A DNA stretch of 64,000 bases from an uncultured Ectothiorhodospiraceae bacterium (GTDB lineage: Bacteria > Pseudomonadota > Gammaproteobacteria > Nitrococcales > Nitrococcaceae). The notes below the pieces were generated by a model. The model worked only from the letters and a program-made list of their open reading frames with translations. It was not told where the DNA came from and made no database searches. The translations under genes and the position numbers were made by a program. The DNA is taken from NCBI GenBank assembly GCA_913057145.1, contig CAJXNJ010000002.1, forward strand, positions 1 through 64,000. Reading direction: 5' to 3'. Below, piece by piece: positions 3-20,349 of this stretch; the stretch's first letter is position 1, and the number at the start of each line of letters is the position of its first letter.

Positions 3-3000
3 AACACCCGAATCCTCTCAGCCAGTGGCGATATCGGCCTGCTCGGCGCGGCCGGCGGTAAAACCGATGCTCAGGGTCAGAACAGCTACGGCATCTACTC
101 CACCGCACAGGCCATCTATATCGGCCGTGATGCCAGTCGTAGTACGGCCACCGGCGATATCCTGCTGCAGGCCGATTCCATGGAGTTCGTCAATGATTCC
201 GACCAGCGGCTGCAGGTCTCAAGCAGCGGTAATCTTTTGATTCGGCCTGAAAATTTGGATACAGATATTGAATTCGGCAACGCCGGGAGCCTCCCCGAAC
301 TCGGCGGTCAGAAGACGCTTTATTTGGGTGAGAACTGGTTTGATGGCAGTGAAACGGGTGTTTTTCTGTCTGCGCCGCTGGTGACTTCCTCCAGTGTCGA
401 TGGTGATACCCAAACGCTGGTTATCGAAGGGAACGCCGGTGGTGATTTCAAGCTGATCCTGCCGGACGGCAATGGCAGTTTTATTACGACCGCGGATATT
501 ACGTATACGGATGACCTGACCGCATTAGCCAGCTTGGTCGGTGCAGCGCTAAGCAACGCATCGATAGGGGTTGCCTCAGTTGTTCCCAATGCCGGAGCCG
601 GTGCACTGACCGTCAACTTTACAAACGAGCAGTCTGAGTTGCTACTAGGAGACACGACGGCTAACACAGTCAGCTTTCCGGCAATTTCGGTTGGAAATGA
701 AGCGCTCAGCGGCCAAATACGGGTCAATGCGTCCACGCAGTTCAGAGATAATCTCAACCTCCTCGCAGGCGAGCGTCGAGCCGGTGTGACGAAGAGCGTG
801 GTGATCAACTCGCCCCTCAGTGTGCAGGCACAGCCGAATAACGCTCTCGTGGGCGGCAATGCCGCGGGCGATGGGGACGGTGGGACGCTATTTATTAATG
901 CGGACTTTCTGGGAGTTAACCAGAGTGCCGGGGCAACCGCCAAGGCGCCTATTACCGCGGACACGCTCTTCCTCGCGGGGGACGAAGATTTCGTCATGAC
1001 CGGCGATAATCTGGTTAACCGTCTGGGCGCGTTCATTGACGGGCGACTGGCGTTCAACAACACCCGCGCGCTAACGCTCGATTCAGCATCGGTCGACTAT
1101 CGGGCGTTGAACAGTTTGAATGAAACAAATGGCGAACTGACGTTTGGCGCAGTAACCACAAGCACCTCCGGTGTCGGGGTCAGCCAGAATCAGCAGATTG
1201 ATATTCGTGTTACCGATGGTGATCTCACGCTCAATGCCGAGATCAGGGTCGCAGGCTCTCCGGATCCATTTACTCCGTCGACCGGCATTGTCAGTCTCGC
1301 CGCAACGGCCGGCAGGATCACACAAACGACGACTGACCCGGGCAACATTATTTTTGCCGATGCGCTTTACCTATCGGCCGATGAGGACACCAGCAGTCTC
1401 ACCAATGCCAATCAGGTCAATCATCTCGCGGGCGATTTCACGGCCGCCAATGATGCCGGGCTGACGCTCACTGTCGATCGCAGCCTCGAGATTGATCGCG
1501 TCTCAGTGACCACGCTCACTGCAGATCCGAACTCGGTGCTGGGAGCGGTGACAACAGGTTCAGTTGATCATGACGGGCTCATTGCCGCCGGCGGTACGGT
1601 CGTGCTGACGGTGGACGGCGATGGCGCTCAGGCCAATCTGACCCAGTCTGCCAATGGCCCGGTCCAAGTCGAGGCATTGCGGGTCAACCTGCCCAATGGC
1701 GCGTTGACACTGGAGAATGCCAGCAACCAGATCGATACCATTGCGGCGGATCTTCAGACCGGCAGCCGAGATTTCAGCTTACGCAATGCCGGCGGCATGA
1801 CAGTGGGCACGGTAGATTCGCTTAATGGGATCAGCCTCGGTTCGGGAGGCAATATCCGCATTGCTCTTGAATCCGGAACACTAACGCTGGAGCAAGCAAT
1901 TCTCACGAGCACAACGGGCACGCTTGATCTGCGCGCCGGGGGCGATATCGCCTTCGCCCCGGAGACGTCGATTACTGCACCTTTCAACAGCCTGTCGACA
2001 GGCACTGGCATAGCCCAGCTGATCGCTGGGGGTGCCATCACAACCACCAAGGCGGCCGGCAATGATTTTGTCGCCGTCAACTCAGGTGGCGCAGTCCGCC
2101 TGCAGGCGGTCACCGGCATCGGTACCGATGCCAACCGACTCGAACTGCGCAATGTCCCGACGCTGGCGGCGAGCGATGGCACTGGCGGGATCTGGATTAC
2201 GCGCACGGACATGAATACCTCTGGTGACTTGTTGACCGTTGGCAGTGTCGCAGCGCTCAATCCGGACTGGCCGGCCGCAACAACGGTAACGCCTGACCCG
2301 CTCACTGGTCTGACTACGACTGGCGATAACGCGCCTATTACGCTGGTCGCCGCCGGTACTGACGCCGACCTGAGCATCAGCAAGGCCGTTGACGCGAATG
2401 GCAGCGGGGATGTGGATCTTCGGGCAGGGGGTTCGGGTGGTCTTCTGATTGATTCCAACGATAGCGGTCTGGTGCATAGCGATTCAGGCACCATTCAGCT
2501 GATCGCGGGTGGAAATATTTCGGCGAACACTAATAGCAACACCACACCGGATAACGAAATCGAGACTACTGGCGCAGTCCTGCTCAACGCCGGTGGCGCT
2601 ATCGGTGCCAACGCTCAGCGAATCGAGCTATCCGGCAATGGGTTGACCATGGCGGCAAAAGCGGCTGACAGCATTTATCTTCGTCAGCACGATGGCAGTG
2701 CCACGGTCGGTAATGTGGCAGGCGTAAACGGTGCTGATTCGCTTGATGGCCTGGTGGCCACGGCGAATGACGGAAACATCGTTTTATCAAGCAGAGATGG
2801 TTCGCTAACGGTTGCACGCACCGTTCAGTCGCACGGCACAGGCTTTATCGATTTGCGGGCATCCGGTACAGGGTCCGATATCAATCTCAATTTGTTTACG
2901 ACTAATGATGACGACACAACGGCCGATGCAATTCTTGTGGCAGGCTCGAGCGGTTTAGTTCAAGTCATTGCCGAGGATGCGATTACAGTTGGCCAAGCAA

Positions 3001-6000
3001 CCGATGTCACCGCGCCGGCGGAAATTCAAACAGACGGCAGTGTGCTGTTGCAGGCCGGATCCACCATTGGCTCCCAAAGCAACGAACTTGAAATTGGTAG
3101 CAGCAGTAATTCCGGTTCGACCACGATTGCCACTCACAGTGGTAATGCCCAGTGGTTGGGTGGCACCAACGGCAATATCGTTGTCGGATCAGTGACCGCA
3201 CAACAAGACAACGCGATTGATCCCGATATTGTTGCTACCACTCGCTCTGGTCTCACGACCACGGCCAATAACGGCTCGATTACGCTGATCACCGACGGCG
3301 GCAATCTGACAGTGGCTCAGGCGGTTACTGCTCACGGCAGTGGCTACATCGATCTGCGCACGGGCGGTTCCGGTGACATCGCCATCGATAATGATGGTAC
3401 GGCCAGTGGTGGCGGCGCAGTAATTTCCGATATATCTGCAGGTAGTGACGCTGGCAAACTGATCTCGGGTACCGGAACGGTTCAGTTGTCGGCCGGAGGC
3501 GGATCTGGTGGCTCGATTACCGTCACGAGCGCGACCGACGGTGTGGCGGAAATCGATACCTCTGGTGATGTGTTTATGGAGGCCGGTGAAAATATCGGTG
3601 CCACTAATAAGCGCATCGAGATGGATGACGTGGCGACGCTGGCTGGGCGTACGCTGTCTGCTGGCGCGGATAACGCTATTTACCTACGCCGACTTGGTAC
3701 CAGCGCCACAGGGGACGCGATCACCGTGGGCTCGGTGACTTTGGTGGGTACGCCTGGCTCCCCGGTGATATCGGGCCTTACTACCGGCGGTAATAACGCC
3801 CCGATCACCCTGACCACGCAGGGCGGCAACCTGATCGTCACGCAGGATATCCAGGCAAATGGACACGGCAACGTAGACCTGCGCACGGCATCCGGACGGG
3901 CGGGCAGTATTCAGATCAATGGTGGACAGATCCGCTCCGGCGCCTCCGGTGATGGCACAGGCACCATTCAGCTGCTATCGGGCAGCGCGATAACCACCAC
4001 GGATACAACCGCTATCGATGAGATCGCCACTGCAGGCGCTGTCCTGTTAAGAGCCGATGGTGCTATCGGTTCGACCGATAATCGAATTGAGCTAGCCGGC
4101 GATCTGACGCTCAGCACGACCAGTACTGATGAGCAGTGGATCCGTCAGACGAGCGGTAATTTGCTGGTTCGGACGGTTTCTTCAATCGCCGATAATTTGG
4201 ATAACGCGGTTAGCGGTGATTTTTCCGGTCTCACGACGACCGCCAACAATGGCGCAATTGCTCTGACCGCGGACGCTGGCGATTTAACCATCGCACAGGT
4301 GGTTGAGGCGCATGGCAGTGGTGACATCGATCTGCGTACAGCGGATTCCGGCGATATCACGATCGATAACGATGGCAGCGGTGATACCGGTCAGTTGGTT
4401 GCCAATGATGCGACCAGTACTGTTCAGCTGATTGCCGGCGGCGCCATTACGACAACCAGCAGCAATGGTTCAGTCAACGAGGTTGCGTCACCCGGATTGG
4501 TACGTCTTGAGGCCGGTGATGAAATCGGCAGCACGACGAATCGTATCGAACTCGATAACGTCATCACCGTGGCCGCAGAGGCCGGCGAGGGCGGCCTTTG
4601 GCTGCGCGGAATGGAGAGCGCAGCGGTACTTACCATCGGTTCAGTGGATGGCGTCAATGGCGCTTCGACACTGAATGGGCTTACGACCGATTTTGCCGGT
4701 GCGCCAATCACTCTCAGTACGGTCGGTGGTGGTCTGACGGTGTTGGAAGACATCCAGACAGCTGGTAACGGCAACATCGATCTGCGCACGGGTAGCGCTG
4801 GCTCGGGTGATATCGCCATTAACAATGACGCTCAGATACGCTCGGGCGCCGCCGGCGATGGCACTGGCACCATTCAGCTGCTGTCGGCTGGCGCAATTAC
4901 GACGGATACGCTGTCAGGAGACGACACTCCTGATGATGAGATTGTCACCGGTGGAAGTGTGCTGTTGGATGCCGCCGGAGAAATTGGGTACGTCGGCGGA
5001 GATGGCGAAGACGATAATCGCATTGAGATTGCGGGTGCGAATGGCATTGCTGCGCGGAGTGGCGGGATTCAGTTGCTTCGTCAGACCGAGGGTGATGCCG
5101 TTGTCGGATCGGTGACAGCCATTGGAACGGACAATAACCTCGATAATCTGGCCAACACGCTCAATGGACTGGTGACGACGGATGGCAGTGGTTATGTCAG
5201 TTTCTTCGTTGCCGATGGCACCTTGACTATTACCGAGAATGTCGTCACTCATACTGCCGGGCCCATCGATTTGCGAACGGGTGGCACGGCAAAGAACATC
5301 GCGATCAATAACGGGGCCGCGCTTCTGCCCGGCGGTGGGACTGGCAGTGGCTTGATTCAGCTGATTGCCTCCGGCGGGATTCAGACTGATGGCACCAGTG
5401 ATGAGACGCCGCAGTTGCGGAACCAATTCGGCGTGCTGCTCACCGCGGACAGTGGCGCCATTGGTTCAGCCTCGAATCCGCTGCGTCTTGCCGGTAACAA
5501 CCAGGTAACGGCGAGTGCCTCTGGTGAGGGTCATGGTATCTATCTAAGGCAGGTCAGTGAGAACCTGACGATCGCCGGTGGAGTTGCCTTTCCGACAACG
5601 GATAGTAGTGATGATAATGCGGCCGTCGACCAGTCTGATCTTACGACTGAGTCTGGCCCGATTGTTGCGGTCAGCGTGGCGGGTAATTTGGTGCTGACCG
5701 ACGATACTTATGATGGTGTACGCATCAACGCTGGCGGCGCCGACGGCCATGTTCGGCTTGAGACGGAGACCAATCAGAACGTAACCCTCAACGCCGGCGT
5801 CACGGCGGGTGGTAGCGTCAGCCTCATCTCCGATGGGTCGCTGACGCAGGCAGCTGGAGTTGAAGTCATCTCCGGCACAGCAAGTACGGAGGATGACGGC
5901 ACCATCGCCGTTGAAGTGATCAGCGACATTACGATGGCCGGCGATTCCATCCTGCGCACCAATGGTGATGATGTGCTGGTGTTGTCGGCTTCCGGTGATA

Positions 6001-7544
6001 TCGCGCTGGGTCAGATCGATGCGACCGACAGCGGTTCAGCGCGCGTCTCTGCGGTTAAGGGCTCAATCACCAATGCCGATACCAGCGACAGCGAGACCAA
6101 TGTCACCGCCAACGGCGTCCAGCTCTTTGCTGAGAAGGCAATGGGTGTCGATACGAGGCCCATCGTGCTTGATGCGACAACCGTGGCCGCTGAGGCAACG
6201 ACGGGCGGTATTTTTATCGGCGGCGAGAGCAGCAGTGAGCTGAATATCGGCGAGGTGACTGCCATCACCGTGAACCGGGTCGGGACCAATGGCGGGATCA
6301 ATCAACTTGAAACCGACCAGATCACGGTTCTCTCGGGCCTCGCCACCGCCGGCGAGGATATCGACGTTAACACCAACGATGCCAACCTCAACATCGGTGG
6401 CACGGTCACCACGGGCGGCACCAATAATGGCAACATTTCACTGGGCACAACCGGAGGCACGGGTTCTCTGATCGCTCAGGACGGCGTCGATATCATCGGC
6501 AACACGCTGGTGGTGGATGTCGCAGGCGATGCGCTGCTTACACTGCCCAATCGCGCCGAAGGGGTTGATGGTACAACGCTTTTCGCTAACGCCTTTGGCC
6601 CGGAGAGTGTCAGTCGTATCAGCGGTTCTGTGGGTGGGGCTTTGTACTTCGCCCGCAATGGCGATGTCACGATTGTTCAGGCACCGGATGCAGCGGCTGA
6701 AGACCCGGGCATAAGCGCCGACTACGTCTGGATTCGCGCCGCGGACAACCTCACGCTAGACGCGCCGATTGTGCTGAACGCGGGCCGCACGGCACCGGAT
6801 AGCACCATCGCCAATCGCGGCGTCATCCTTGCCGCCGGTGATACCTTCCGCAACAACACCGGTGTCGGTGCGAATGCCATTCAGGCAGGCGATGCCGGCT
6901 GGCTGATTTATGACACTAACCCGCTTAATGACCTGACCCGTCTGGGTCAACTGCAGCCGCAGTTCCGCTTTTTTGAGCGCCGTTACGACAATGCCAAGCC
7001 CGGCATTATCCTGCCCCCGGGTAACGGCTATGTCTCCACCATGCCGTTGTATTTGCCCGAGACGCTCGATGTTGAGCTTGGTGATAGTGACGGCGGCAGC
7101 ATGGTTACCGTCGGCGCACCGCCGCTGCCGGTGGCCCCGACACCCATCGACACCACTACTATCCCGTTGCCGGTAGCTATCCCGGGCACGGATGTTGGGT
7201 TGCCGCGGGTGATTGCCCCGGGCAGCGATGCAGCAGGCTTTGGTGCTATGCTCGCGATCGCCGTTGAAGCCAACCGCGGCTTTAGTGCCTCGCTTGCCGA
7301 TGCCCTGGGGGATGCGCGATTTATCTCAGCACAGCTTGCCAACGGTGATCCTCTGCCGGATTGGCTTGAGGTGGTGGTTGACGGCGGGCAGCCGGTGTTA
7401 AAGGGCATGGTGCCGGTGGATTTCCGCGGCTCACTCACCGTTCGCATTAATGCCGGTGATGCCGAGGCCGGTGCGGTTGGCGCGGTCGAGCTGCAACTAA
7501 TCGCCGGCCTTGATGGAGCGCCTGATCTGACTCAGGCACCTTAA
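3..7544 (+). CDS. Giant haemagglutinin-like repeat protein (5' end outside window)
   Basis: The frame is open from base 3, so the gene begins upstream and the ATG at 180 is only internal; at least 2,513 residues are visible. The sequence is rich in Gly, Thr, Asp, Asn and Ser, and I saw no cysteine, as in secreted beta-helical adhesins. Between about 2380 and 5600 an imperfect unit of roughly 140-170 residues recurs about seven times, marked by IDLRTG, TIQLIAGGAI, NRIEL, LRQ, VGSV, GLTT and LTV. Near the C-terminus (about 6890-7050) is a WLIYDTNP...QPQFRFFERRY segment like those ending filamentous-haemagglutinin-type proteins. A putative Ig/cadherin-like domain follows (PLPDWLEV at about 7350). 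It is first in a run of co-directional export-like genes and is the likely cargo. No TpsB-type pore lies in the window. Family is inferred; the N-terminal secretion signal cannot be seen. Confidence 0.8.
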   Translation, partial: NTRILSASGDIGLLGAAGGKTDAQGQNSYGIYSTAQAIYIGRDASRSTATGDILLQADSMEFVNDSDQRLQVSSSGNLLIRPENLDTDIEFGNAGSLPELGGQKTLYLGENWFDGSETGVFLSAPLVTSSSVDGDTQTLVIEGNAGGDFKLILPDGNGSFITTADITYTDDLTALASLVGAALSNASIGVASVVPNAGAGALTVNFTNEQSELLLGDTTANTVSFPAISVGNEALSGQIRVNASTQFRDNLNLLAGERRAGVTKSVVINSPLSVQAQPNNALVGGNAAGDGDGGTLFINADFLGVNQSAGATAKAPITADTLFLAGDEDFVMTGDNLVNRLGAFIDGRLAFNNTRALTLDSASVDYRALNSLNETNGELTFGAVTTSTSGVGVSQNQQIDIRVTDGDLTLNAEIRVAGSPDPFTPSTGIVSLAATAGRITQTTTDPGNIIFADALYLSADEDTSSLTNANQVNHLAGDFTAANDAGLTLTVDRSLEIDRVSVTTLTADPNSVLGAVTTGSVDHDGLIAAGGTVVLTVDGDGAQANLTQSANGPVQVEALRVNLPNGALTLENASNQIDTIAADLQTGSRDFSLRNAGGMTVGTVDSLNGISLGSGGNIRIALESGTLTLEQAILTSTTGTLDLRAGGDIAFAPETSITAPFNSLSTGTGIAQLIAGGAITTTKAAGNDFVAVNSGGAVRLQAVTGIGTDANRLELRNVPTLAASDGTGGIWITRTDMNTSGDLLTVGSVAALNPDWPAATTVTPDPLTGLTTTGDNAPITLVAAGTDADLSISKAVDANGSGDVDLRAGGSGGLLIDSNDSGLVHSDSGTIQLIAGGNISANTNSNTTPDNEIETTGAVLLNAGGAIGANAQRIELSGNGLTMAAKAADSIYLRQHDGSATVGNVAGVNGADSLDGLVATANDGNIVLSSRDGSLTVARTVQSHGTGFIDLRASGTGSDINLNLFTTNDDDTTADAILVAGSSGLVQVIAEDAITVGQATDVTAPAEIQTDGSVLLQAGSTIGSQSNELEIGSSSNSGSTTIATHSGNAQWLGGTNGNIVVGSVTAQQDNAIDPDIVATTRSGLTTTANNGSITLITDGGNLTVAQAVTAHGSGYIDLRTGGSGDIAIDNDGTASGGGAVISDISAGSDAGKLISGTGTVQLSAGGGSGGSITVTSATDGVAEIDTSGDVFMEAGENIGATNKRIEMDDVATLAGRTLSAGADNAIYLRRLGTSATGDAITVGSVTLVGTPGSPVISGLTTGGNNAPITLTTQGGNLIVTQDIQANGHGNVDLRTASGRAGSIQINGGQIRSGASGDGTGTIQLLSGSAITTTDTTAIDEIATAGAVLLRADGAIGSTDNRIELAGDLTLSTTSTDEQWIRQTSGNLLVRTVSSIADNLDNAVSGDFSGLTTTANNGAIALTADAGDLTIAQVVEAHGSGDIDLRTADSGDITIDNDGSGDTGQLVANDATSTVQLIAGGAITTTSSNGSVNEVASPGLVRLEAGDEIGSTTNRIELDNVITVAAEAGEGGLWLRGMESAAVLTIGSVDGVNGASTLNGLTTDFAGAPITLSTVGGGLTVLEDIQTAGNGNIDLRTGSAGSGDIAINNDAQIRSGAAGDGTGTIQLLSAGAITTDTLSGDDTPDDEIVTGGSVLLDAAGEIGYVGGDGEDDNRIEIAGANGIAARSGGIQLLRQTEGDAVVGSVTAIGTDNNLDNLANTLNGLVTTDGSGYVSFFVADGTLTITENVVTHTAGPIDLRTGGTAKNIAINNGAALLPGGGTGSGLIQLIASGGIQTDGTSDETPQLRNQFGVLLTADSGAIGSASNPLRLAGNNQVTASASGEGHGIYLRQVSENLTIAGGVAFPTTDSSDDNAAVDQSDLTTESGPIVAVSVAGNLVLTDDTYDGVRINAGGADGHVRLETETNQNVTLNAGVTAGGSVSLISDGSLTQAAGVEVISGTASTEDDGTIAVEVISDITMAGDSILRTNGDDVLVLSASGDIALGQIDATDSGSARVSAVKGSITNADTSDSETNVTANGVQLFAEKAMGVDTRPIVLDATTVAAEATTGGIFIGGESSSELNIGEVTAITVNRVGTNGGINQLETDQITVLSGLATAGEDIDVNTNDANLNIGGTVTTGGTNNGNISLGTTGGTGSLIAQDGVDIIGNTLVVDVAGDALLTLPNRAEGVDGTTLFANAFGPESVSRISGSVGGALYFARNGDVTIVQAPDAAAEDPGISADYVWIRAADNLTLDAPIVLNAGRTAPDSTIANRGVILAAGDTFRNNTGVGANAIQAGDAGWLIYDTNPLNDLTRLGQLQPQFRFFERRYDNAKPGIILPPGNGYVSTMPLYLPETLDVELGDSDGGSMVTVGAPPLPVAPTPIDTTTIPLPVAIPGTDVGLPRVIAPGSDAAGFGAMLAIAVEANRGFSASLADALGDARFISAQLANGDPLPDWLEVVVDGGQPVLKGMVPVDFRGSLTVRINAGDAEAGAVGAVELQLIAGLDGAPDLTQAP
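2380..5600 (+). repeat. In-frame degenerate repeat array of the giant protein
   Basis: About seven imperfect copies of a 430-520 bp coding unit. Anchors are the segments encoding (V/I)DLR(T/A) at about 2415, 2845, 3350, 3877, 4327, 4777 and 5263. Each copy carries the same ordered short motifs (IDLRTG, GTIQL, VLL.AG..IG, RIEL, VGSV, GLTT, LTV). Copies are diverged at the DNA level, so this is old protein repetition, not recent tandem duplication. Confidence 0.75.
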
Positions 7545-7582: not shown

Positions 7583-7900
7583 ATGGCTGAGCAGAAAAAA
7601 ACCGCGGCTGATAGTGCCTCTGGCGCTGAGCAGCCCCAGGCCCCCGAGGTGCGCTGGGATGACAGCGAGATGCAGTCAAGCTATGCCAATGTCTGCAATG
7701 TGCAGGGCACCCGTGAGGAAATCGTGCTTTTATTTGGTGCCAACCAGTCACTGATGCAGGATCTCAGCCAGCCGGTCAACATCAAGCTCTCCAATCGCAT
7801 TATGCTGAATCCGGCAGCGGCCAAGCGCTTCTCGATCCTCTTGCAGATGGGCCTTGAGCAGTACGAAAAGAAATACGGTGAGATCAAGCTCAGCGAGTAG
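7583..7900 (+). CDS. DUF3467 family protein
   Basis: A 105-residue protein with a low-complexity N-terminus of about 30 residues, then a DUF3467-like core: SYANVCNVQGTREEIVLLFG, NIKLSNRIMLNPAAAKRF and a final LEQYEKKYGEI helix. There is no signal peptide or membrane segment, so it is probably cytoplasmic. The biochemical role of the family is unknown to me. The ATG at 7583 follows a GGAG-type ribosome site, 38 bases after the giant gene's stop. Its 3' end overlaps the start of the next gene, which argues for translational coupling. Its place between the giant protein and the HlyD/M50/SecA-like genes suggests an accessory or chaperone-like job in export, which is inference only. Confidence 0.8.
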   Translation: MAEQKKTAADSASGAEQPQAPEVRWDDSEMQSSYANVCNVQGTREEIVLLFGANQSLMQDLSQPVNIKLSNRIMLNPAAAKRFSILLQMGLEQYEKKYGEIKLSE

Positions 7901-9674
7901 CAGCGCCTGGTCCGGCCTGCTCGAGGAGAGCACCGAGGGCATCTTTCACACGGTATGGCTGGCCCGCCTGGCTGATGAGGTGGGCTGGCCGGATGAGCTG
8001 GTGCTGGTGCTCGGCCCGGAAAATACCGGGCCATTTGCGCCCGTTGCCACCTGGCCGCACCAGACCCCTTGTTCACAAGCTCTGCAGGCGCTCTGCGAGC
8101 AGTCGTTGGCAATGCGCCGGGCGGTCAGCGAGCAGCGCGACGGTCGCAGTTATTTGGCCCAACCGGTGCTGCGCGGTGCGGATATGCTGGGCGTGGTGGG
8201 GCTCGGCCTCGAGGGCCCGCTTAGCGTTGATTTGCGCAATCGCCTGAGCCTGGCATTGGGCTGGCTGCTGGCGCATCCCTCGCTGCATCCGGACAAAGGT
8301 GATGGTGAGCTTAGTGAGCGGCTGTTGCTGCTGCTCGAACTCCTGCTCTCAACACATGGTGAATCCCCTTCTACCGAAACCTTTCAGACCGTGCTCTCGG
8401 AGGCGGCGGTGCGGCTTGGTTGTGATCGGGTGTCACTCGGTAGTGTGCGCGGCCAGCGCATTCGATTGCTGGCGCTTTCACAGGCGGCCAACTTCTCACG
8501 TCGCATTGATTTAACCCGGGCCCTGGAAGAGGCCATGGATGAGGCGGCCGATCAGGCCAGCACGCTGCAGGTACCGGCCGATCCCGAAACGCTGGCTACA
8601 ACGCGCGCCCATCAGGCACTGGCCGCCGATCAGGGTAATGCCTGGATTACCACGGTGCCTTTTACCTTAAGTGAGGGCCATTACGGGGCGATGACCTTTG
8701 AATGGGCGGATGAGCCTGATGAGCAAACCCGCGGTGTCGCCGAGGGTATGGCCGCTGTGGTCGGGCGCGTACTGCTTGAGCGCGAGCTCTCGGATCTCTC
8801 GCTCTGGGGGGCGCTGCGCCGCTCAACCCGTCGTCAGCTGACCCGGTTATTCGGGCCGCGTTACCTGGGGCGTAAATTGCTTGCAGCCGCGTTGATCGCC
8901 ATCATCGGCTTTTTTAGTTTTGCCACCGGTGAGTTTCGGGTAAAAGCCGATGCCGCGCTTGAAGGTGCGGTGGTGCGCACGCTCTCGGCACCTTTTGATG
9001 GCTTTGTCGATGGCGCCTTTCATCGAGCCGGGCAGCGGGTATCGGCGGGTACAGTGATTGCCAGTCTGGATGATCGCGATCTGCGCCTTGAACTACTCGG
9101 GCAGGCCAGTCAGCAGGCACGCTTTGAGCGTGAAATGCGCTCGGCGCAGGCAACGCGCGATACTGCCGGCGGGCGGATTGCCGAGGCGCAGATGCGCCAG
9201 GCCGCCGCACAAATGGAAATGACACAGATGATGCTTGAGCGCACCGATATCGTGGCGCCGTTTGATGCCATCATCACCAGTGGCGATCTCTCACAACAAC
9301 TCGGCCGACCGGTGCAGCGCGGTGATGTGCTGTTTGAGCTTGCCCCGATTGCCGATTACCGCGTTGTCATTCAGGTGGATGAAACCGATATCGGTGAGAT
9401 AGCGCCGGGGCAGCGCGGCACGCTGGTGCTCAAAGCCTTCCCCGAGCGTGAAATTGGTTTTCAGGTCAGTCTGATTACCCCGGTTTCTCAACCTGCTGAG
9501 GGCAGCAACCGCTTTCGGGTCGAGGCCGAGCTTGATCAGGTGCTGCCTGCCATGCGCCCGGGCATGGCCGGTGTGGCGCGGGTCAGTATTGATCAGCGGC
9601 ATCTGATTGCCATTTGGACGCGCGATGCCCGTAACTGGCTCTCGCTTGCGTTGTGGCGCTGGTTCGGGGCCTAA
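7878..9674 (+). CDS. GAF-like domain fused to membrane-anchored HlyD-type adaptor
   Basis: A protein of about 598 residues. The first ~330 are soluble and include a GAF-like region (about 140-285, around AAVRLGCDRVSLGSVRG). One membrane helix follows at about 333-354 (LLAAALIAIIGFFSFATG), then a periplasmic HlyD-type region. That region has a biotinyl-lipoyl-like half (APFDGFVDGAFHRAGQRVSAG), a coiled-coil hairpin, the second half (ERTDIVAPFDAIITSGD) and a beta-barrel portion. I chose the GTG at 7878, which overlaps the DUF3467 gene by 23 bp; TTG at 7854 is also possible and neither has a strong ribosome site. HlyD proteins normally bridge an inner-membrane transporter to an outer-membrane channel. 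A cytoplasmic sensor-like domain on the same chain is unusual. The next gene starts 3 bases after this stop. Confidence 0.8.
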   Translation: MRSSSASSSAWSGLLEESTEGIFHTVWLARLADEVGWPDELVLVLGPENTGPFAPVATWPHQTPCSQALQALCEQSLAMRRAVSEQRDGRSYLAQPVLRGADMLGVVGLGLEGPLSVDLRNRLSLALGWLLAHPSLHPDKGDGELSERLLLLLELLLSTHGESPSTETFQTVLSEAAVRLGCDRVSLGSVRGQRIRLLALSQAANFSRRIDLTRALEEAMDEAADQASTLQVPADPETLATTRAHQALAADQGNAWITTVPFTLSEGHYGAMTFEWADEPDEQTRGVAEGMAAVVGRVLLERELSDLSLWGALRRSTRRQLTRLFGPRYLGRKLLAAALIAIIGFFSFATGEFRVKADAALEGAVVRTLSAPFDGFVDGAFHRAGQRVSAGTVIASLDDRDLRLELLGQASQQARFEREMRSAQATRDTAGGRIAEAQMRQAAAQMEMTQMMLERTDIVAPFDAIITSGDLSQQLGRPVQRGDVLFELAPIADYRVVIQVDETDIGEIAPGQRGTLVLKAFPEREIGFQVSLITPVSQPAEGSNRFRVEAELDQVLPAMRPGMAGVARVSIDQRHLIAIWTRDARNWLSLALWRWFGA

Positions 9675-9677
9675 AAA

Positions 9678-11831
9678 ATGGCCGATCGCTATTCTCAGGC
9701 CTGGTATCGCGTTGCCAATACAATCCCGCGGCTGCGCTCACAGGCCCGGGTGTTCCGGCACGTCTACCGCGGCAGTCCCTGGTATCTGATTCAGGATCTG
9801 GGTAGCGGTAAGTTTTTGCGCCTGAATGATTCGGCCTATCAGGTGGTGGCGCTGATTGATGGTTACCGAAGCCTTGAGCAGATCTGGCAGCACGCCAGTG
9901 AAAGGCTGGGTGAATCGGTACCCACCCAAGATGAAATCATCAGTCTGATTGCCCAGCTGCATCAGGCCAATGTGCTGGTGGCCGATCGGCTGCCGGATAT
10001 TGCCGAGCTGGAAGAGCGTCGGGCAAAAGATCTAAAAGCCCGGGTTAAACAGTATCTGGCTAACCCTATGGCGCTGCGTTTTCCGTTGCTTGACCCGGAT
10101 CGTTTTCTGACCCGGGTGGTGGCTGCGGTGCCGCGGTTTCTCTGGCCCTGGCTGCTTTTTGCCTGGCTTGGACTGATCGGCTATGGCGCGGTACTCGCGG
10201 TGATGCATTTTGGCGCGCTGACCGAGGACATCAGTCGCCTTGCCTTTAGCCCGCAGTACATCGGAATGCTTTTTATTGTCTTCCCGCTGCTTAAAGTCCT
10301 GCATGAAATCGGCCATGGTATCGCCATTAAGGCCCAGGGCGGGCAGTGCCATGAAATGGGCCTGATGCTGCTGGTGTTAATGCCCATCCCTTATGTGGAT
10401 GCCAGCCACAGCAGCGGATTTCGCAGCAAATACCAGCGCATGCTGGTGGCAGCAGCCGGCATGATTACCGAGCTGGGTCTGGCCAGTATTGCGCTGATGC
10501 TCTGGCTAGAAGTTGATCCCGGGCTTTTTCGGGTGTTTTTGCAGGAAGTGGTGCTGGTGGCGGGTGTCAGCGCGCTGCTTTTTAACATCAACCCGCTGCT
10601 GCGCCTTGATGGCTATTACATTCTCTCGGACTGGCTGGAAATTCCCAATCTGGGGCAACGGGCTAATCAGTATTTTGGCTACACCATAAAGCGCTATTTT
10701 CTGCGCGTGCGCCGGCATCTGGCAGCCCCGTCACTGGCTAAAGGCGAAGCGCCATGGCTGTGGTTTTACGCAATTCTCTCATTTGCCTATCGCATGTTTC
10801 TGGCCGCGATGATTACGCTTTTTGTCGCCGGTGAGCTCTTTTTTATCGGTGTGTTGCTCGCCGCCTGGGCTATTTACATGATGATCATCCTGCCCATTGC
10901 CAAAACCGCGCATGCCGCCTGGCACGACCCGGCCATCAGCCCCAGACGCCCGCGACTGGTGGCGATGACTATAACCACGGTTGCGCTGGTAGCAGGGCTG
11001 TTGTTTCTTGCCCCGGTGCCATCGGCCACGCGGGTGGATGGCGTTGTCTGGGTGCCCCAGGGTGCGGAGGTCAGTGCACCGCTTGGCTGTTTCGGGATCG
11101 AGGTGTTGAGCGGGCCTGGCCCTGTTGCCAGTGGCGCCCCGCTTTTGCGCTGTGAAGATCCGCTGCTTGCCGGTGAGCTTAAAGGACTGCGTGCCCAGGC
11201 GGATCAGTACCGCGCTGATCTGGCCAGCCAGCTGACTCAGGATACGGTGCTGGCCGCCAATATTCGCCAGGAGCTTGCCACCATTGAATCGGCCATCGAT
11301 GATCTGCAGCAGCGACTGGAGGATTCTGTGGTCAGAAGTCCGGCGGCCGGGCGCTTTGTCCCGAATACACAAATTGACTTTATTGACCGGTATTTTCGCC
11401 GCGGTGAAACCCTGGGTTATGTCATTGATGATCGGCGAATGACGGTGCTGGCCGCGGTCCCGCAGCGACAGGCCCAGCGGGTGTCGGCCGATCGGCAATC
11501 GGTTGCCGTGCGCCTTGCCGATGCCCCGCAGAACGAACATCGCATGCAAGTGGTGCGCGAGGTTCCCGCTGCCACTCGCGCGCTGCCCAGTCTTGTGCTC
11601 TCGCTTGAGGGTGGCGGGGATATCGGCCTTGACCCGCAGTCGCGCGAGCAGGCAACGCCGCTGGCACTTGAGCCGGTGTTTTTGCTAGAACTGGCCCCGT
11701 TGGACGTTGATTTTCCGGTTGAGGCGATTGGCCAGCGTGCGCATGTGCGCATCGGCCACACCCCCGAGCCCTTAGGGGTGCAAGCGTATCGGGTGATTCG
11801 CGATATTTTCCTTGAGCGGTTCATGATCTGA
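9678..11831 (+). CDS. PqqD-like / M50 site-2 protease / HlyD-like fusion
   Basis: A 717-residue polytopic membrane protein. Residues ~30-95 look PqqD-like (FLRLNDSAYQVVALIDGYRS); PqqD-type domains in other systems bind peptides. The M50 intramembrane zinc protease core has HEIGH at residues 209-213 and a second metal motif, NPLLRLDGYY, with Asp at ~311. Further hydrophobic helices run to ~460. The C-terminal third is HlyD-like, with two half-motifs (VWVPQGAEVSAPLGCFGIEV, SVVRSPAAGRFVPNTQIDFI) around a helical hairpin. ATG at 9678. The stop TGA shares its A with the ATG of the SecA-like gene, so the two are translationally coupled. A site-2 protease joined to an export adaptor could process or gate the exported protein, which is inference. 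Confidence 0.85.
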   Translation: MADRYSQAWYRVANTIPRLRSQARVFRHVYRGSPWYLIQDLGSGKFLRLNDSAYQVVALIDGYRSLEQIWQHASERLGESVPTQDEIISLIAQLHQANVLVADRLPDIAELEERRAKDLKARVKQYLANPMALRFPLLDPDRFLTRVVAAVPRFLWPWLLFAWLGLIGYGAVLAVMHFGALTEDISRLAFSPQYIGMLFIVFPLLKVLHEIGHGIAIKAQGGQCHEMGLMLLVLMPIPYVDASHSSGFRSKYQRMLVAAAGMITELGLASIALMLWLEVDPGLFRVFLQEVVLVAGVSALLFNINPLLRLDGYYILSDWLEIPNLGQRANQYFGYTIKRYFLRVRRHLAAPSLAKGEAPWLWFYAILSFAYRMFLAAMITLFVAGELFFIGVLLAAWAIYMMIILPIAKTAHAAWHDPAISPRRPRLVAMTITTVALVAGLLFLAPVPSATRVDGVVWVPQGAEVSAPLGCFGIEVLSGPGPVASGAPLLRCEDPLLAGELKGLRAQADQYRADLASQLTQDTVLAANIRQELATIESAIDDLQQRLEDSVVRSPAAGRFVPNTQIDFIDRYFRRGETLGYVIDDRRMTVLAAVPQRQAQRVSADRQSVAVRLADAPQNEHRMQVVREVPAATRALPSLVLSLEGGGDIGLDPQSREQATPLALEPVFLLELAPLDVDFPVEAIGQRAHVRIGHTPEPLGVQAYRVIRDIFLERFMI

Positions 11832-13801
11832 TGCAGCAGATTGCCCTTCGTGCCAGTCGTTACCCGCAGCGTCTTGAATGGCAGGAGCGGCCCTGGCTGG
11901 ATCGGCTCTGGGATGTCATTGCCACCCGGGCGCATCGTTACTTTGCTGCAGCAAAATGGCGTCAGTACTGGTTTGTCCGCCGGGTAATGGCAGCCCAGGC
12001 AAGGCTTGAGTCACTGGATACAGCGGAATCTCGCAAGGCGTTGCAAACGCTGCGCCTGGCGCTGCGCCGCGAGGGGGTGACGGATCGGCATCTTGCCGAG
12101 TGCTTTGCCCATGTGCGCCTGCAGACTCAACAGGTGCTGGGTGTCTCGCATTATCCGGTGCAGATTCGCGGCGGTTATCTGATGGCCCGCGGGTTGTTGG
12201 TGGAAATGGACACCGGTGAGGGCAAAACACTAACGGCTACGCTGCCGGCAGCGGCTATGGCGCTGGCCGGCTATCGGGTGCAGGTGATTACCGTTAATGA
12301 CTATCTGGCTGCCCGCGACGCCGCGCAATTATCCCCCGTTTATGCCCGGCTCGGGCTGCGCTGTGCGGTGGTGCGTGAAGATGATGATGAAGCCGCGCAC
12401 CGCGATGGCTTTGCTGCGGATATCTGTTATTGCACCGGCAAAACCCTCGCTTTTGATTATCTGCGTGATCGCATGGCGCTTGGCGATCGATTAAGCACGC
12501 TGGCGATGGATCTGGATGGCTTTACCGGGCGCTGGCAGCAGAATGTGCGTCTGCCCGGGCTGCAGTTTGCGCTTATCGATGAGGCGGACAGTATCTTAGT
12601 TGATGAGGCGCGAACCCCGTTGATTATCGCTGCCACGGCTGATCAGGCCGATGTTGATTTCTATGCGCGGGCCATCGAGCTTGCCCGGGCGCTGCGTAAG
12701 GATGAGGACTTTATCGAGGCCGGCGAGCAGCAGGGTTATGATCTAACCGGCAAGGGCCGAGAGCGGCTTGCCGACTGGTGCGCCGGTCTCGGCGGAGCTT
12801 GGTCACATCAGGCCCAGCGCGAATATGCGGTATGTCGGGCTTTGCTGGCTCTCCACGGCTTTCGCCGCGATGTGCACTACATCATTGATGAAGATGCCGT
12901 GGTCATTGTTGATGAGCAGACCGGGCGCGTGATGCCGGATAGAAGCTGGGAGGCGGGTATGCACCAGTTAATCGAGCTAAAGGAAGACGTGCCGGTAACC
13001 GCTCAGCGTCAAACCCTTGCGCGAATCAGCTACCAGCTCTTCTTCCAGCGGTTTTTGCACCTGGCCGGTATGTCGGGAACCGCTCGTGAGGTGGCCCATG
13101 AGCTGATTGGCCATTATGGACTGCCGGTGGTGCGTATCCCGCCGCACAGGCGCTCGCAACGCGCGAATGTAGGCCGGGCAATGTATGCCAGCCAGGTGCA
13201 GAAATGGCAGGCGGTGGTGGAGCGTTGCGAACAGTTTTACGCCAGTGGCCGGGCAGTGCTGGTGGGTACGCGCAGTATTGAGTCCGCCGAGGCACTGGCT
13301 GTGCGCATGCGCGAGCAGAATATCCCGTATCAGCTGCTGCATGCCCGTCAGGATGCCGAGGAGGCAGGTATTATTGCCCGCGCCGGTCAGCCTGGTCAGA
13401 TCACGATCGCCACCAACATGGCAGGGCGGGGTACCGATATCGCGCTACATGATGCGGTTCGCAGCCGCGGGGGCCTGCATGTCATTCTGACCGAAGGACA
13501 TGAAAGCCGTCGTATCGACCGTCAGCTGATCGGCCGTTGTGCGCGTCAGGGTGAGCCGGGTAGTTATGAAATGATGTTTTCACTTGAAGATGATCTGCTC
13601 AAAGACTCGCAGGCGGCGCGCTGGCTGGCCCTGCGCGAGCATGATGGTCTACTGCCAGGGATATGGCAGCCTCTGGCTTGGGGGTTATACCGAGCAGCCC
13701 AGCGCCGGCTTGAGCGTCGACACCGTCGGGTGCGGGCACAATTGCTGAGAACCGAGTATCGTTTGCGCCGCTCGTTGTCATTTACCGGGCGCATGGAGTA
13801 A
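11831..13801 (+). CDS. Short non-canonical SecA-like preprotein translocase ATPase
   Basis: A 656-residue SecA-type motor; housekeeping SecA is usually about 900. Walker A MDTGEGKT lies at ~126-133 and the DEAD-like segment LIDEADSILVDEARTPLI at ~246-263. A preprotein cross-linking region with IIDEDAVVIVDEQTGRVMPD follows, and NBD2 carries TNMAGRGTDI (~526) and GRCARQGEPGS. After NBD2 the chain ends within about 65 residues, so most of the helical scaffold/wing region and the C-terminal zinc-binding tail are missing. It sits between membrane adaptor genes, not beside secM/mutT as housekeeping secA often does, so it is probably a second, dedicated SecA. It likely powers translocation of the giant protein or another cargo from this locus (inference). 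Confidence 0.9.
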   Translation: MQQIALRASRYPQRLEWQERPWLDRLWDVIATRAHRYFAAAKWRQYWFVRRVMAAQARLESLDTAESRKALQTLRLALRREGVTDRHLAECFAHVRLQTQQVLGVSHYPVQIRGGYLMARGLLVEMDTGEGKTLTATLPAAAMALAGYRVQVITVNDYLAARDAAQLSPVYARLGLRCAVVREDDDEAAHRDGFAADICYCTGKTLAFDYLRDRMALGDRLSTLAMDLDGFTGRWQQNVRLPGLQFALIDEADSILVDEARTPLIIAATADQADVDFYARAIELARALRKDEDFIEAGEQQGYDLTGKGRERLADWCAGLGGAWSHQAQREYAVCRALLALHGFRRDVHYIIDEDAVVIVDEQTGRVMPDRSWEAGMHQLIELKEDVPVTAQRQTLARISYQLFFQRFLHLAGMSGTAREVAHELIGHYGLPVVRIPPHRRSQRANVGRAMYASQVQKWQAVVERCEQFYASGRAVLVGTRSIESAEALAVRMREQNIPYQLLHARQDAEEAGIIARAGQPGQITIATNMAGRGTDIALHDAVRSRGGLHVILTEGHESRRIDRQLIGRCARQGEPGSYEMMFSLEDDLLKDSQAARWLALREHDGLLPGIWQPLAWGLYRAAQRRLERRHRRVRAQLLRTEYRLRRSLSFTGRME

Positions 13802-13804
13802 ATC

Positions 13805-14530
13805 ATGCCGTTTTTCATCGGATTTTTATTGCTGATGCTACCGCTTGCTGTCAACGCCCAGGTCAATAGTTGCATTCTTGAGCCATCCAGCGACGTTGAG
13901 ATCGGCACACCGGCGCAGGGGTATCTGGTGGAAGTCACTGTTGATCGCTCGGATACGGTGTCGCGCGGTGATTTGCTGGCAAGACTTAATGATGGAGTAG
14001 AGCGCGCCGGTATTAGGCTTCAGGAAACCCGGGTTGCCTTTAATCAGCGTCATCTTGAGCGCACAGAGGATCTTGGCGCTCAGCGCATGATGTCGGATCA
14101 GGAAATTGATGAAATCCGAACCGACTATGAGCTTGCCCGTGCAGAGCTTGCCCGTGCGCGCGAGGAGCTGGCGCTGCGCGAAATTCGCAGTCCCATTGAT
14201 GGCGTTGTCGTTGAGCGGCGCTTTGGTGAGGGGGATCTGGTGCAGGGCGAGCCTGTGTTTCGGCTAATGGCGCTTGATCCTCTGCGTGTTGAAGTTGTGC
14301 TGCCGGTGGCCTATTTTGGCCGGCTGTCGATGGGTGAGGAAAAAATCATCTGGCTGCCGGAGATTAATCGCACGGCCAGTGCGCGCATTGTCAATATTGA
14401 CCGGGTTATCGACCCGCGCAGTGGCACGTTCAGGGTCAGGCTGCAGACCCCTAATCCGCAATTGGATATTCCCTCGGGCTTGCGCTGCGAGTTTGTCGAG
14501 GGCGAACTGGAAAGCATGGAGATTGAATAG
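13805..14530 (+). CDS. Periplasmic HlyD/RND-type membrane fusion protein
   Basis: A 241-residue protein with a cleavable-looking signal (MPFFIGFLLLMLPLAVNAQ). It has a biotinyl-lipoyl half, VEIGTPAQGYLVEVTVDRSD, a short coiled-coil hairpin, the second half EIRSPIDGVVVERRFGEGD, and a beta-barrel part ending in SGTFRVRLQTPNPQ. It resembles the periplasmic adaptors of efflux or type I systems but is short and lacks a membrane helix after the signal. The ATG lies 3 bases after the SecA-like stop, and two bases separate its own stop from the SapC start. This is the third HlyD-like module in the locus. Its inner- and outer-membrane partners are not identified. Confidence 0.85.
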   Translation: MPFFIGFLLLMLPLAVNAQVNSCILEPSSDVEIGTPAQGYLVEVTVDRSDTVSRGDLLARLNDGVERAGIRLQETRVAFNQRHLERTEDLGAQRMMSDQEIDEIRTDYELARAELARAREELALREIRSPIDGVVVERRFGEGDLVQGEPVFRLMALDPLRVEVVLPVAYFGRLSMGEEKIIWLPEINRTASARIVNIDRVIDPRSGTFRVRLQTPNPQLDIPSGLRCEFVEGELESMEIE

Positions 14531-14532
14531 CA

Positions 14533-15258
14533 ATGGCTGAGTTACTTTTCTACAGCGAGCCGGTAGCGCTTAACCGGGAAGAGCACAAGGGCTTTAAGGT
14601 AAATCCCCCGGGTGATTTTGGCTTTACCCGGCAGACCAACTCGGTGGTTCTGGCCGGAATTGAGTTTGCCGAAGCCTCGCGGCACTACCCGATCGTATTC
14701 ACCCGCAATGCTGATCAGATCATTCCTGTGGCAGTGCTGGGTATGCGCGATCAGGAAAACTTGTTTGTTGATGCCGAAGGAAAGTGGCAGGCCGGCTATA
14801 TTCCCGCGTTTGTGCGTCGCTATCCATTTGTGCTGGCCAATCGTCCGGACGATCAGGATCAGTTTTTGATCTGTGTTGATCAGTCAACGCTCAGCGAAGA
14901 GGAAGGTAACGCCCTTTTTGATGAGGCGGGTCAGGAGACTGAGTATCTTCAGAATGCTTCGCGTTTTATGCGCGAATACCATCAGCGCTTCTTACAGACC
15001 CTTGAGTTTGGCAAAAAGCTTGATGAGCTGGGGCTTCTGACTGAGATGAACGCCCGGGTAACTCGTGAGGATGAATCAGCCGTGGTGCTTGGACAGTTCT
15101 TAAGTGTTAACGAACAGGCGCTGATGCAGCTGACTACCGCACATGTCGATGAGCTCTTCCGTGCCGGTTATATGGGCTGGATTTATGCTCATCTGATCTC
15201 GATGGGGCTGTTCCCTGAGCTTGCCCGGCGCATGGGTGAGCTGGAAGCTGCCGCCTGA
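14533..15258 (+). CDS. SapC family protein
   Basis: A 241-residue soluble protein of the SapC family (PF07277-like). It has the typical start (LNREEHKGFKVNP), the central FVRRYPFVL segment, and the C-terminal VHDL-like part (AHVDELFRAGYMGWIYAHLI). No signal or membrane helix is seen. The family is named after the first gene of the Campylobacter fetus S-layer export locus sapCDEF; its molecular function is not established. It ends the export-like operon here, two bases after the HlyD stop, and converges on the next gene. The co-occurrence of a SapC protein, HlyD adaptors and a giant repetitive protein supports a surface-protein export role for the locus. Confidence 0.85.
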   Translation: MAELLFYSEPVALNREEHKGFKVNPPGDFGFTRQTNSVVLAGIEFAEASRHYPIVFTRNADQIIPVAVLGMRDQENLFVDAEGKWQAGYIPAFVRRYPFVLANRPDDQDQFLICVDQSTLSEEEGNALFDEAGQETEYLQNASRFMREYHQRFLQTLEFGKKLDELGLLTEMNARVTREDESAVVLGQFLSVNEQALMQLTTAHVDELFRAGYMGWIYAHLISMGLFPELARRMGELEAAA

Positions 15259-18001: not shown

Positions 18002-18706
18002 TTGTCGACGCGTATTAACGACGGATTGGAAAGGCAGGGGCTCACCAGCGCCGTGCGCCAGGAGATTGAGCAGATGCTGGTCGATGGCGACCTGAAGATG
18101 GGCGATCGCATCAACGAGGTGGATCTGGCCAATCGCTTCGGGGTGAGCCGGGGGCCGATTCGCGAGGCATGTCGTGGTCTGGCTGAGCGGGGGTTGCTCA
18201 GTATGGTGCCCTACCGGGGCGCTTATGTCCGGGAGATCAGCCTCGCCGAAGCGCAGCAGCTCTACGAGCTCAGGGCGGGTGTTTTTGGTTATGCCGGCTA
18301 TGTGGCCGCACAGCAGCCCAACCCGGCATTGGTGGAGGAACTGCGCGAGCTGCATGCAGCCATGGGAGAAGAGGTAAGCGCCGGGCGGACGCGGAATTAC
18401 TACGCGCTCAATCTGAAATTCCACACAGCGATCCTTGAGCACACGGGCAACGAGGAGCTGATACGTAACTATCAGAATCTGGTTGCCAAATTGCATCTGT
18501 ATCGCGCGAGCGGACTGGTCCAGCGCGGCAGTCTGCAACAGTCCAATGTCGAGCATGGCGAGATTATCGATGCCATGGTGCTCGGCCAGCCGCTGCAGGC
18601 ATTTGAGGTTCTGCATCGGCATGTGCAGGCGGGGATGCGGAGGATGCTCTTCGCCCAGCCCTGCGATGAGAAAGCGAAGGAAGGTGTCCGGGATACCGGG
18701 ACCTGA
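18002..18706 (+). CDS. GntR family regulator, FadR/FCD subfamily
   Basis: A 234-residue DNA-binding regulator. The N-terminal winged helix (~10-75) has the GntR pattern MGDRINEVDLANRFGVSRGP followed by IREACRGLAERGLLSM. The C-terminal all-helical FCD ligand domain (~85-220) shows LYELRAGVFGYAG, FHTAILEHTGNEELI and the metal/ligand His near HRHVQAG. The start is TTG at 18002, supported by AAGGAGGAG 6-14 bases upstream. FCD regulators commonly sense organic acids and repress neighbouring catabolic genes. Position between two divergent catabolic units and nearby similar operator-like sites make it the likely local regulator. It ends 71 bases before the transporter gene. Confidence 0.9.
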   Translation: MSTRINDGLERQGLTSAVRQEIEQMLVDGDLKMGDRINEVDLANRFGVSRGPIREACRGLAERGLLSMVPYRGAYVREISLAEAQQLYELRAGVFGYAGYVAAQQPNPALVEELRELHAAMGEEVSAGRTRNYYALNLKFHTAILEHTGNEELIRNYQNLVAKLHLYRASGLVQRGSLQQSNVEHGEIIDAMVLGQPLQAFEVLHRHVQAGMRRMLFAQPCDEKAKEGVRDTGT

Positions 18707-18777
18707 CGCCAGGGGCAACCTTTATTGGTAAGCAGCAGGGAAGCGGTTGAAGTCAACTAAACTGGAGGAGAGAAGCG

Positions 18778-19761: not shown

Positions 19762-19785
19762 GCACGCAATAATCTGCGTTCTTTT

Positions 19786-19819
19786 CCCTGGGCGGCCAGA
19801 CCGGCCGCTCAGGGCTTTT
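19786..19819 (+). terminator. Intra-operon hairpin between tctC and tctB
   Basis: Two 12-base arms, CCCTGGGCGGCC (19786-19797) and GGCCGCTCAGGG (19803-19814), pair along their whole length with one G-T wobble around a 5-base loop, followed by CTTTTC. It is a good intrinsic-terminator shape with a short T-run, and may act as a partial terminator or 3' stabiliser of the tctC message. Confidence 0.6.
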
Positions 19820-19851
19820 CCAAGGATAATGACTGCCAGAGGGTTTTAGCC

Positions 19852-20346
19852 ATGACCAATGTGTCAGGGGTTAGTGCGCGCGGACTGCATCACGATGTCT
19901 ATGTCGGGCTGGTGTTGCTGATTTTCTGCGCGGTGACTTTCTACATCACCACCACATTCGATTCCGTGCCGGCCATGCTCTCGCAGAACATTCCGGCCAC
20001 CTTTTTCCCGCGACTGATTCTGTTTGTGATCGCGGGGCTGAGCGTAATCCTGATCGTCTCGGGGTTGCGGCGCACACCGGAGAAGCTCGGTGGTATTCCC
20101 GGCTCCGTTTTTTTAACGGCCGGGGTCATTACCCTTGCGATTTTTCTGGTTAAACCACTGGGTACGCTACTCACTGTCTCCCTGCTCTCCATGACGCTGA
20201 CCTGGCTGTGGGGGGAGCGCAGTAAGACCCGAATCATTTCGCTGGCGATCGGTCTGCCGGCGGCCATCTATCTTATTTTCGCCATCGGCCTGCAGGTTCG
20301 CTTCCCCGCAGGCGTTGTTCTGGCGTTGTTCGGTGCTGGAGGTTAA
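19852..20346 (+). CDS. tctB: Tripartite tricarboxylate transporter small membrane subunit
   Basis: A 164-residue protein with four hydrophobic helices typical of TctB: VYVGLVLLIFCAVTFYITT, FPRLILFVIAGLSVILIV, a third near VFLTAGVITLAIFLV and a last pair near the C-terminus. It pairs with TctA in the inner membrane. It starts with ATG at 19852 after the intercistronic hairpin and ends three bases before tctA, so the two are co-translated. Confidence 0.85.
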   Translation: MTNVSGVSARGLHHDVYVGLVLLIFCAVTFYITTTFDSVPAMLSQNIPATFFPRLILFVIAGLSVILIVSGLRRTPEKLGGIPGSVFLTAGVITLAIFLVKPLGTLLTVSLLSMTLTWLWGERSKTRIISLAIGLPAAIYLIFAIGLQVRFPAGVVLALFGAGG

Positions 20347-20349
20347 GTC

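Follow-up and report, generated by a model that had tools for sequence, protein, structure and literature searches.

The window analysed here comprises bases 1 to 64,000 of contig C2 from the fragmented genome (1.6 Mb, 78 contigs) of an uncultured Ectothiorhodospiraceae bacterium. Close to its start, seven genes follow one another in the order giant open reading frame, DUF3467 gene, HlyD-type adaptor with GAF-like sequence (GAF-HlyD), PqqD-M50-HlyD fusion, SecA-like ATPase, short HlyD adaptor and SapC gene (Table 1). The subject of this report is the GAF-HlyD gene, an open reading frame with a GTG start that encodes 598 amino acids and is probably part of a conserved exporter. An alternative TTG start is possible at 7854, and from the GTG the gene overlaps the end of the upstream DUF3467 gene by 23 bases.

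The SecA_DEAD, M50, GAF-HlyD and HlyD components all lie within 7878-14530 (the M50 profile match is below cut-off, with HExxH present), and the window locus belongs to the SecA_DEAD/M50/GAF-HlyD locus type of Kamneva, Poudel and Ward 2015 (PMC4452313). Profile scans confined to the seven cluster genes identified no ABC, RND or MFS transporter; an ABC energiser of type I secretion was likewise not found among these genes, the rest of the genome not having been searched. The giant fragment, which is cut at its 5' end by the contig start, gave no Pfam match at E<=0.1 and contained no tandem DNA repeat above threshold. For the DUF3467 and SapC profiles, comparison with PDB profiles revealed no convincing solved relative.

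Comparisons were made across 370 gammaproteobacterial genomes (the class sample) and 397 Pseudomonadota genomes (the phylum sample), which overlap in part (for example G103, G144 and G250). We also assembled 52 loci with a GAF-HlyD member, consisting of the window, 11 loci from the first searches and 40 of our own choosing (20 per sample); some of these loci end at contig ends, and some genomes are counted twice.

Table 1. Genes of the window cluster and predicted parts of the adaptor, with supporting evidence
Feature	Position	Strand	Evidence
Giant protein, 3' part, at least 2513 aa, open at contig start, likely cargo	3..7544	+	Open frame; similar to large frames of genome G143
DUF3467 protein, 105 aa, small conserved partner	7583..7900	+	PF11950 E 2.8e-22; in 20/52 loci
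Tandem-GAF HlyD adaptor	7878..9674	+	Reading frame, Pfam profiles, family alignment
GAF-A, residues ~11-132 (predicted)	7908..8273	+	AlphaFold2 pLDDT 82.1; VIA-align Z 14.1 to 3e0y; GAF-A/GAF-B profile comparison
GAF-B, residues ~143-305 (predicted)	8304..8792	+	GAF_2 E 7.6e-5 (below cut-off); VIA-align Z 13.7 to CodY GAF; 3o5y profile match
Single transmembrane helix, residues 334-352	8877..8933	+	Hydropathy
Periplasmic HlyD/barrel-sandwich part with short hairpin, residues ~362-580	8961..9617	+	HlyD_3, HlyD_D23; PDB profile matches
Conserved Trp-rich C-terminal tail	9618..9671	+	W593 invariant in 12/12 (family alignment)
PqqD + M50 (HExxH) + HlyD fusion, six hydrophobic segments	9678..11831	+	PF05402 E 2.1e-6; PF02163 E 0.0015 (below cut-off); PF13437
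Secondary SecA-like ATPase, no SecA_SW domain detected	11831..13801	+	SecA_DEAD E 3e-88
Short HlyD-type adaptor	13805..14530	+	HlyD_3 E 2.8e-14; RND_mfp 117.6 bits, above cut-off
SapC-family protein	14533..15258	+	PF07277 E 3.5e-72; in 12/52 loci

The adaptor carries two predicted GAF domains ahead of its membrane helix

The C-terminal half of the protein is readily recognised. Residues ~364-563 matched HlyD_3 (E 1.1e-20) and HlyD_D23 (E 5.8e-15), both above the Pfam cut-offs, and an HlyD profile was found in all 52 family members (E<=0.01). PDB profile matches of this part were to MacA- and EmrA-type adaptors. Predicted barrel-sandwich domains and a membrane anchor are both present, as in HlyD-type periplasmic adaptors. 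The preliminary description of this gene had placed a large soluble region ahead of the only membrane helix, and hydropathy bears this out, residues 334-352 being the sole 19-residue segment to exceed 1.6 on the scale. Since the helix stands alone and an Arg/Lys-rich stretch precedes it, the first ~330 residues should be cytoplasmic. The Trp-rich tail is conserved across the 12-row family alignment.

The same description had likened the soluble region to a GAF domain, and proposed structure prediction and a GAF profile search as checks. Scanned alone, the window protein stays under the Pfam cut-offs (GAF_2 23.4 bits against 28.6; GAF 20.4 against 22.4). Its family gives a clearer signal: Pfam GAF was matched in 9 of 12 members at E<=0.1 and in 38 of 52 at E<=0.01, with a best value of 1.6e-15, the window being included in both sets. 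When ten relatives were scanned as single sequences, eight passed the cut-off of PF01590 (22.4), among them L084 at 28.3, L018 at 40.9 and L020 at 50.1, while L099 fell under it and L015 had no GAF match. A profile built from the 52 adaptors also matched a solved GAF sensor, 3o5y, by sequence (E 4.4e-4).

Predicted structures agree with the profiles. An AlphaFold2 model of residues 1-336, built from four sequences, was of low-to-moderate quality (mean pLDDT 60.6), and its top Foldseek matches were tandem PAS-GAF-PHY and PDE GAF structures (best E 3.3e-6). Within it, GAF-B aligned with CodY 8c7o over 143 residues (VIA-align Z 13.7, rmsd 2.7) and with 3ci6 (Z 13.2). Residues 10-142 modelled alone gave pLDDT 82.1 and pTM 0.80, and this GAF-A model aligned with 3e0y over 123 residues (Z 14.1, rmsd 2.6, Foldseek TM 0.72) and with the GAF domains 5hl6 (Z 13.6) and 3ci6 (Z 13.4). 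A few entries with related or different folds, Rag-like GTPases and Roadblock proteins at Z 11-12, occur in both fold lists. Compared with each other over 48 columns, the GAF-A and GAF-B profiles gave P 1.1e-4, and the HHalign probability was only 56%.

Because the relatives' profiles and the two fold comparisons agree, the N-terminal region most likely consists of two GAF domains in tandem, and both models fall within the GAF fold. We therefore dismissed the possibility that the GAF call is an artefact; a single GAF domain was rejected as well, given the residue 10-142 model and its GAF fold matches. The earlier call was thus sound, if understated.

Giant LEPR-XLL proteins are the likely cargo

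A plasmid-borne relative of the adaptor in Thalassospira lies near a gene for a 4033-residue protein with a LEPR-XLL domain (NCBIfam NF012209) at residues 36-52. This domain, found at the N-terminus of giant proteins, was searched for in both genome samples, a match being called strong at >=23 bits in the class sample and at E<=3e-4 in the phylum sample; the rows behind the overlap and distance counts given below were transcribed by hand from the search results. In the class sample, GAF-HlyD was present in 26 of 29 genomes with a strong LEPR-XLL match as against 10 of the 341 others (Fisher P 1.4e-28, relatedness ignored). The phylum sample gave a similar picture, with 30 of 37 against 14 of 360 (Fisher P 8e-28, relatedness ignored). 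Relaxing the class-sample cut to 20 bits left an overlap of 27 out of 34. Among 14 control genomes there was no LEPR-XLL match at E 3e-4; seven of them responded at E<=1, one above the cut-off.

The two genes also tend to be neighbours. Fifteen of the 39 strong LEPR-XLL frames in the class sample lie <=15 kb from a GAF-HlyD gene, every one on the same strand, and 26 of 47 in the phylum sample do so, 23 on the same strand. Of the remaining 24 class-sample frames, one shares the contig at a great distance, and for 23 the gene is either on a different contig or missing from the genome. Genome G567 was scored as LEPR-negative, yet a 2771-residue frame beside its adaptor contains a LEPRLLFSA start, so the overlap counted in genomes may be an underestimate. 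The LEPR-XLL open frames reach 19,427 residues, with a median of 5,359 (47 frames). The longest, opened by the stretch G470:C115:112865-112924, has its end roughly 1 kb away from a GAF-HlyD gene.

A LEPR-XLL start was also detected in the genome of the window. The end of contig C33 carries a TolC-family gene (11413-13314), an HlyD gene (13199-14041) and a frame that starts at 14052 and runs off the end at 14251; this frame contains the match LEQRILLDA (20.9 bits, cut-off 17) at 14115-14168. This frame probably forms the 5' part of the same giant gene of which the window start holds the 3' part. The short HlyD adaptor of the window resembles the C33 HlyD, and neither the TolC nor the HlyD gene of C33 had a match at E<=1e-3 in the stretches of genomes G143 and G419 that were compared. 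In G143 a LEPRYLLSA start stands upstream of a window-like gene order, and the giant fragment of the window resembles large G143 frames beside the same genes (E 1e-82 and 7e-41). The cargo of the exporter is most likely the neighbouring giant protein of LEPR-XLL type.

Conservation and spread of the locus

In the 52 loci, the M50 gene is on the same strand as GAF-HlyD in 49 and directly downstream of it in 48. The other partners are more variable: a short HlyD was found in 38 loci, a SecA-like gene in 35 (two of them weak matches, L098 and L109) and TolC in 4. DUF3467 was present in 20 and SapC in 12, with one or both in 29. DUF3467 and SapC mostly occupy separate loci and occur together in only 3 of the 52.

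The HExxH motif was retained in all 49 M50 frames and a looser second M50 motif in 40 of them, while H210, E211 and H214 were invariant in the 21 members aligned; a PqqD domain was detected in 13 of 21 members. SecA_DEAD was found in 17 of 17 SecA-like members. The helical scaffold and wing domain of canonical SecA goes by the name SecA_SW. This domain was listed for none of the 17 at E<=0.01, so the predicted SecA-like ATPase departs from canonical SecA. One SecA-like protein, L098:7661-9481 (G771:C4), has lost its Walker A motif and scores 108 bits on the family profile in a locus that is otherwise typical, which suggests a non-ATPase relic or variant.

With a 12-row profile at E<=1e-30, the adaptor was found in 36 of 370 gammaproteobacterial and 44 of 397 Pseudomonadota genomes, the window genome being among them in both samples. 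A scan of viral contigs found no relative.

A further observation concerns the surroundings of the locus. Next to the exporter on a Pseudosulfitobacter plasmid are genes annotated as a GntR regulator and a tripartite tricarboxylate transporter (L018 27116-30830). Judged by eye from the translations and the frame list, such genes are also present at 18002-21834 of the window; chance or shared transfer could account for this.

A model for the exporter and its alternatives

The reading that we favour, with moderate confidence, is that the protein is a tandem-GAF inner-membrane adaptor for control and docking, that it belongs to a conserved exporter, and that this exporter most likely carries the neighbouring giant protein of LEPR-XLL type. 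Recognition of the giant protein would depend on the LEPR-XLL leader at its N-terminus, with the PqqD domain as a possible reader, and in one subtype the SecA-like ATPase would push the protein. PqqD domains are related to a precursor-peptide chaperone (PqqD is treated in PMC8939145). The M50 protein with its six hydrophobic segments may provide a membrane step or else cut or process the leader, and the HlyD proteins together with a TolC channel would carry the giant protein outward. On the cytoplasmic side, the GAF pair would give the adaptor a module for control and docking, possibly acting as a small-molecule switch of the exporter.

Several observations weigh against this reading. No exact overlap of 15-299 bases joins the end of C33 to the start of C2, so that their link is one we infer, and in G143 the LEPR-XLL start is in a different frame from those that resemble the window giant. 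The association of the two genes is also incomplete: of the genomes with GAF-HlyD (the window genome among them in both samples), 10 of 36 and 14 of 44 had no strong LEPR-XLL match, GAF-HlyD was missing in 3 of 29 and 7 of 37 strong LEPR-XLL genomes, and among the strong frames 24 of 39 and 21 of 47 lie away from a GAF-HlyD gene, in part because contigs are short. The Fisher tests disregard relatedness and the two samples share genomes. Among 13 genomes of the same genus, one (G003) has a close and a divergent copy of the adaptor, another (G011) has a divergent copy and the remaining 11 lack any at E<=1e-20. In 10 of 20 genomes searched, all ten with an adaptor-family match, a second SecA-like frame could not be found; the SecA-like ATPase is therefore not a universal motor. 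Finally, no GAF domain was detectable in 7 of 10 more distant or SecA-less adaptors scanned.

The function of the GAF pair was considered in the light of its conservation. Between the window adaptor and its 82% identical homologue L005, identity is 0.72 in GAF-A, 0.88 in GAF-B and 0.86 in the HlyD part. Across the family, conservation is lowest in GAF-A (0.382) and higher in the other two folded domains, GAF-B (0.422) and HlyD (0.529); in 6 of 52 members, L006 included, the region corresponding to GAF-A is too short to hold the domain. Single residues were counted in the 37 of 52 members that are at least 27% identical to the window (core members). In GAF-A, W27, W59, P60, P96 and W129 are each retained in 30-35 of these. 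In GAF-B, M220, E222, H245, P233, P261 and E275 are each retained in 35-37, with M220 in 37, E222 in 36 and H245 in 35. In the AlphaFold2 model the latter three are placed in helices between strands 2 and 3, a region that we take to be the usual ligand site of GAF domains. Cyclic-nucleotide-binding GAF domains carry the motif NK(x)nF(x)3DE, and such an NKFDE-type motif was found in none of the 52 family members.

These data bear directly on the strongest alternative, in which the GAF pair senses nothing and is a scaffold for dimerisation and for docking of the ATPase, the PqqD domain or the leader of the cargo. GAF folds can act as dimer scaffolds, and the low conservation of GAF-A, its loss from the short members and the missing NKFDE-type motif all speak for this alternative. 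The near-invariance of M220, E222 and H245 in the presumed ligand region speaks against it. So do three genomes (G236, G356 and G567) in which SecA matches are confined to one frame of canonical length (920, 943 and 929 aa), and whose adaptors still match GAF at E 2e-9, 7.5e-5 and 2.2e-4; two of these genomes are draft assemblies, of 60 and 160 contigs, and for G567 the match scores 22.2 bits against a cut-off of 22.4. The persistence of GAF in these genomes led us to reject docking of the SecA-like ATPase as the sole purpose of the GAF domains, which probably do more than that. We regard the scaffold explanation as quite possible, if short of probable. The preliminary description had gone further and proposed export gated by an intracellular signal. 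The cytoplasmic location that it assumed is retained here; the gating is a reasonable proposal, and a sensory or regulatory role for the GAF of such an adaptor had already been suggested in 2015 (in the text of PMC4452313).

A further alternative is improbable, namely that the protein is a conventional adaptor of tripartite efflux or type I secretion, serving small molecules or unrelated proteins, and that the giant gene is its neighbour by coincidence. The adaptor-type proteins at the locus show RND_mfp as well as HlyD similarity, and some GAF-HlyD genomes have no strong LEPR-XLL match, both points in its favour; the recurrent closeness of GAF-HlyD to LEPR-XLL frames and the lack of an identified ABC, RND or MFS transporter among the cluster genes count against it. 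Still less credible is a daptide-like exporter of the peptide-maturation (RiPP) kind marked by the PqqD-M50 partner. In its favour are matches of the M50 fusion to the daptide_HExxH model (145 bits) and the LiaK-type model (31 bits), as well as the PqqD domain of 13 of 21 members. Against it, both scores are far under the curated cut-offs of 300 and 225, and the conserved nearby substrate-like gene is the giant one (small precursors were unsearched, only frames >=150 aa being listed).

A fuller version of the favoured exporter model can be drawn. It would be an ABC-free exporter dedicated to LEPR-XLL proteins, in which a PqqD domain, fused to an M50 protein within the membrane, reads the leader, the SecA-like ATPase pushes in one subtype and the tandem GAF pair forms a gate controlled by a metabolite or nucleotide. 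Taken with all its parts, this version is rather unlikely and is put forward tentatively.

Relation to known systems and significance

The GAF-HlyD adaptor was already known in outline. The text of Kamneva, Poudel and Ward (PMC4452313) describes one conserved, type I-related locus with a secondary SecA_DEAD ATPase, an M50 protein with membrane helices, GAF-HlyD and HlyD, much as in the window, and proposes a secretion role, a reading that its authors reached independently. It calls the broader role of the locus completely unknown, and reports for Methylobacterium extorquens AM1, whose locus is MexAM1_META1p2402 to 2399, that exponentially growing cells express the GAF gene and the remainder of the operon hardly or not at all. 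The main text of that paper, figures and supplements aside, makes no mention of PqqD, DUF3467, SapC, LEPR or a giant protein. The passages of PMC10868602 and PMC9611531 that use the term LEPR-XLL tie it to no exporter. As far as our searches of open-access papers show, what our analysis adds is the predicted second GAF domain, the further partners and the likely giant cargo. The preliminary description, for its part, had recognised a GAF adaptor and was silent on the conserved cluster to which it belongs, where a giant protein, a PqqD-M50-HlyD fusion and a SecA-like ATPase are also encoded.

Several known systems share features with the locus. Proteins of the LEPR-XLL type (NF012209, LEPR-8K) have large frames with an N-terminal LEPR-XLL and are encoded near GAF-HlyD in many genomes; the NF012209 model covers the N-terminus of the cargo only. 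Like the HlyD and LipC adaptors of type I secretion and those of MacA/EmrA type, the window adaptor has an inner-membrane anchor and a periplasmic HlyD/barrel-sandwich part; unlike them, it carries a predicted cytoplasmic tandem GAF and stands in a cluster without an identified ABC transporter. PelD is an inner-membrane GAF protein of Pel polysaccharide export and not an HlyD adaptor. It likewise places a GAF fold in an export apparatus, and its structures 4dn0 and 4etz are among the fold matches of GAF-A.

The adaptor is matched in about 1 in 10 of the sampled genomes, and for a locus whose broader role was called unknown in 2015 the LEPR-XLL link provides a cargo that can be tested, along with candidates for the export signal and the control domain. 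It could explain how proteins from frames of up to 19,427 residues are exported by a cluster in which no ABC transporter was identified.

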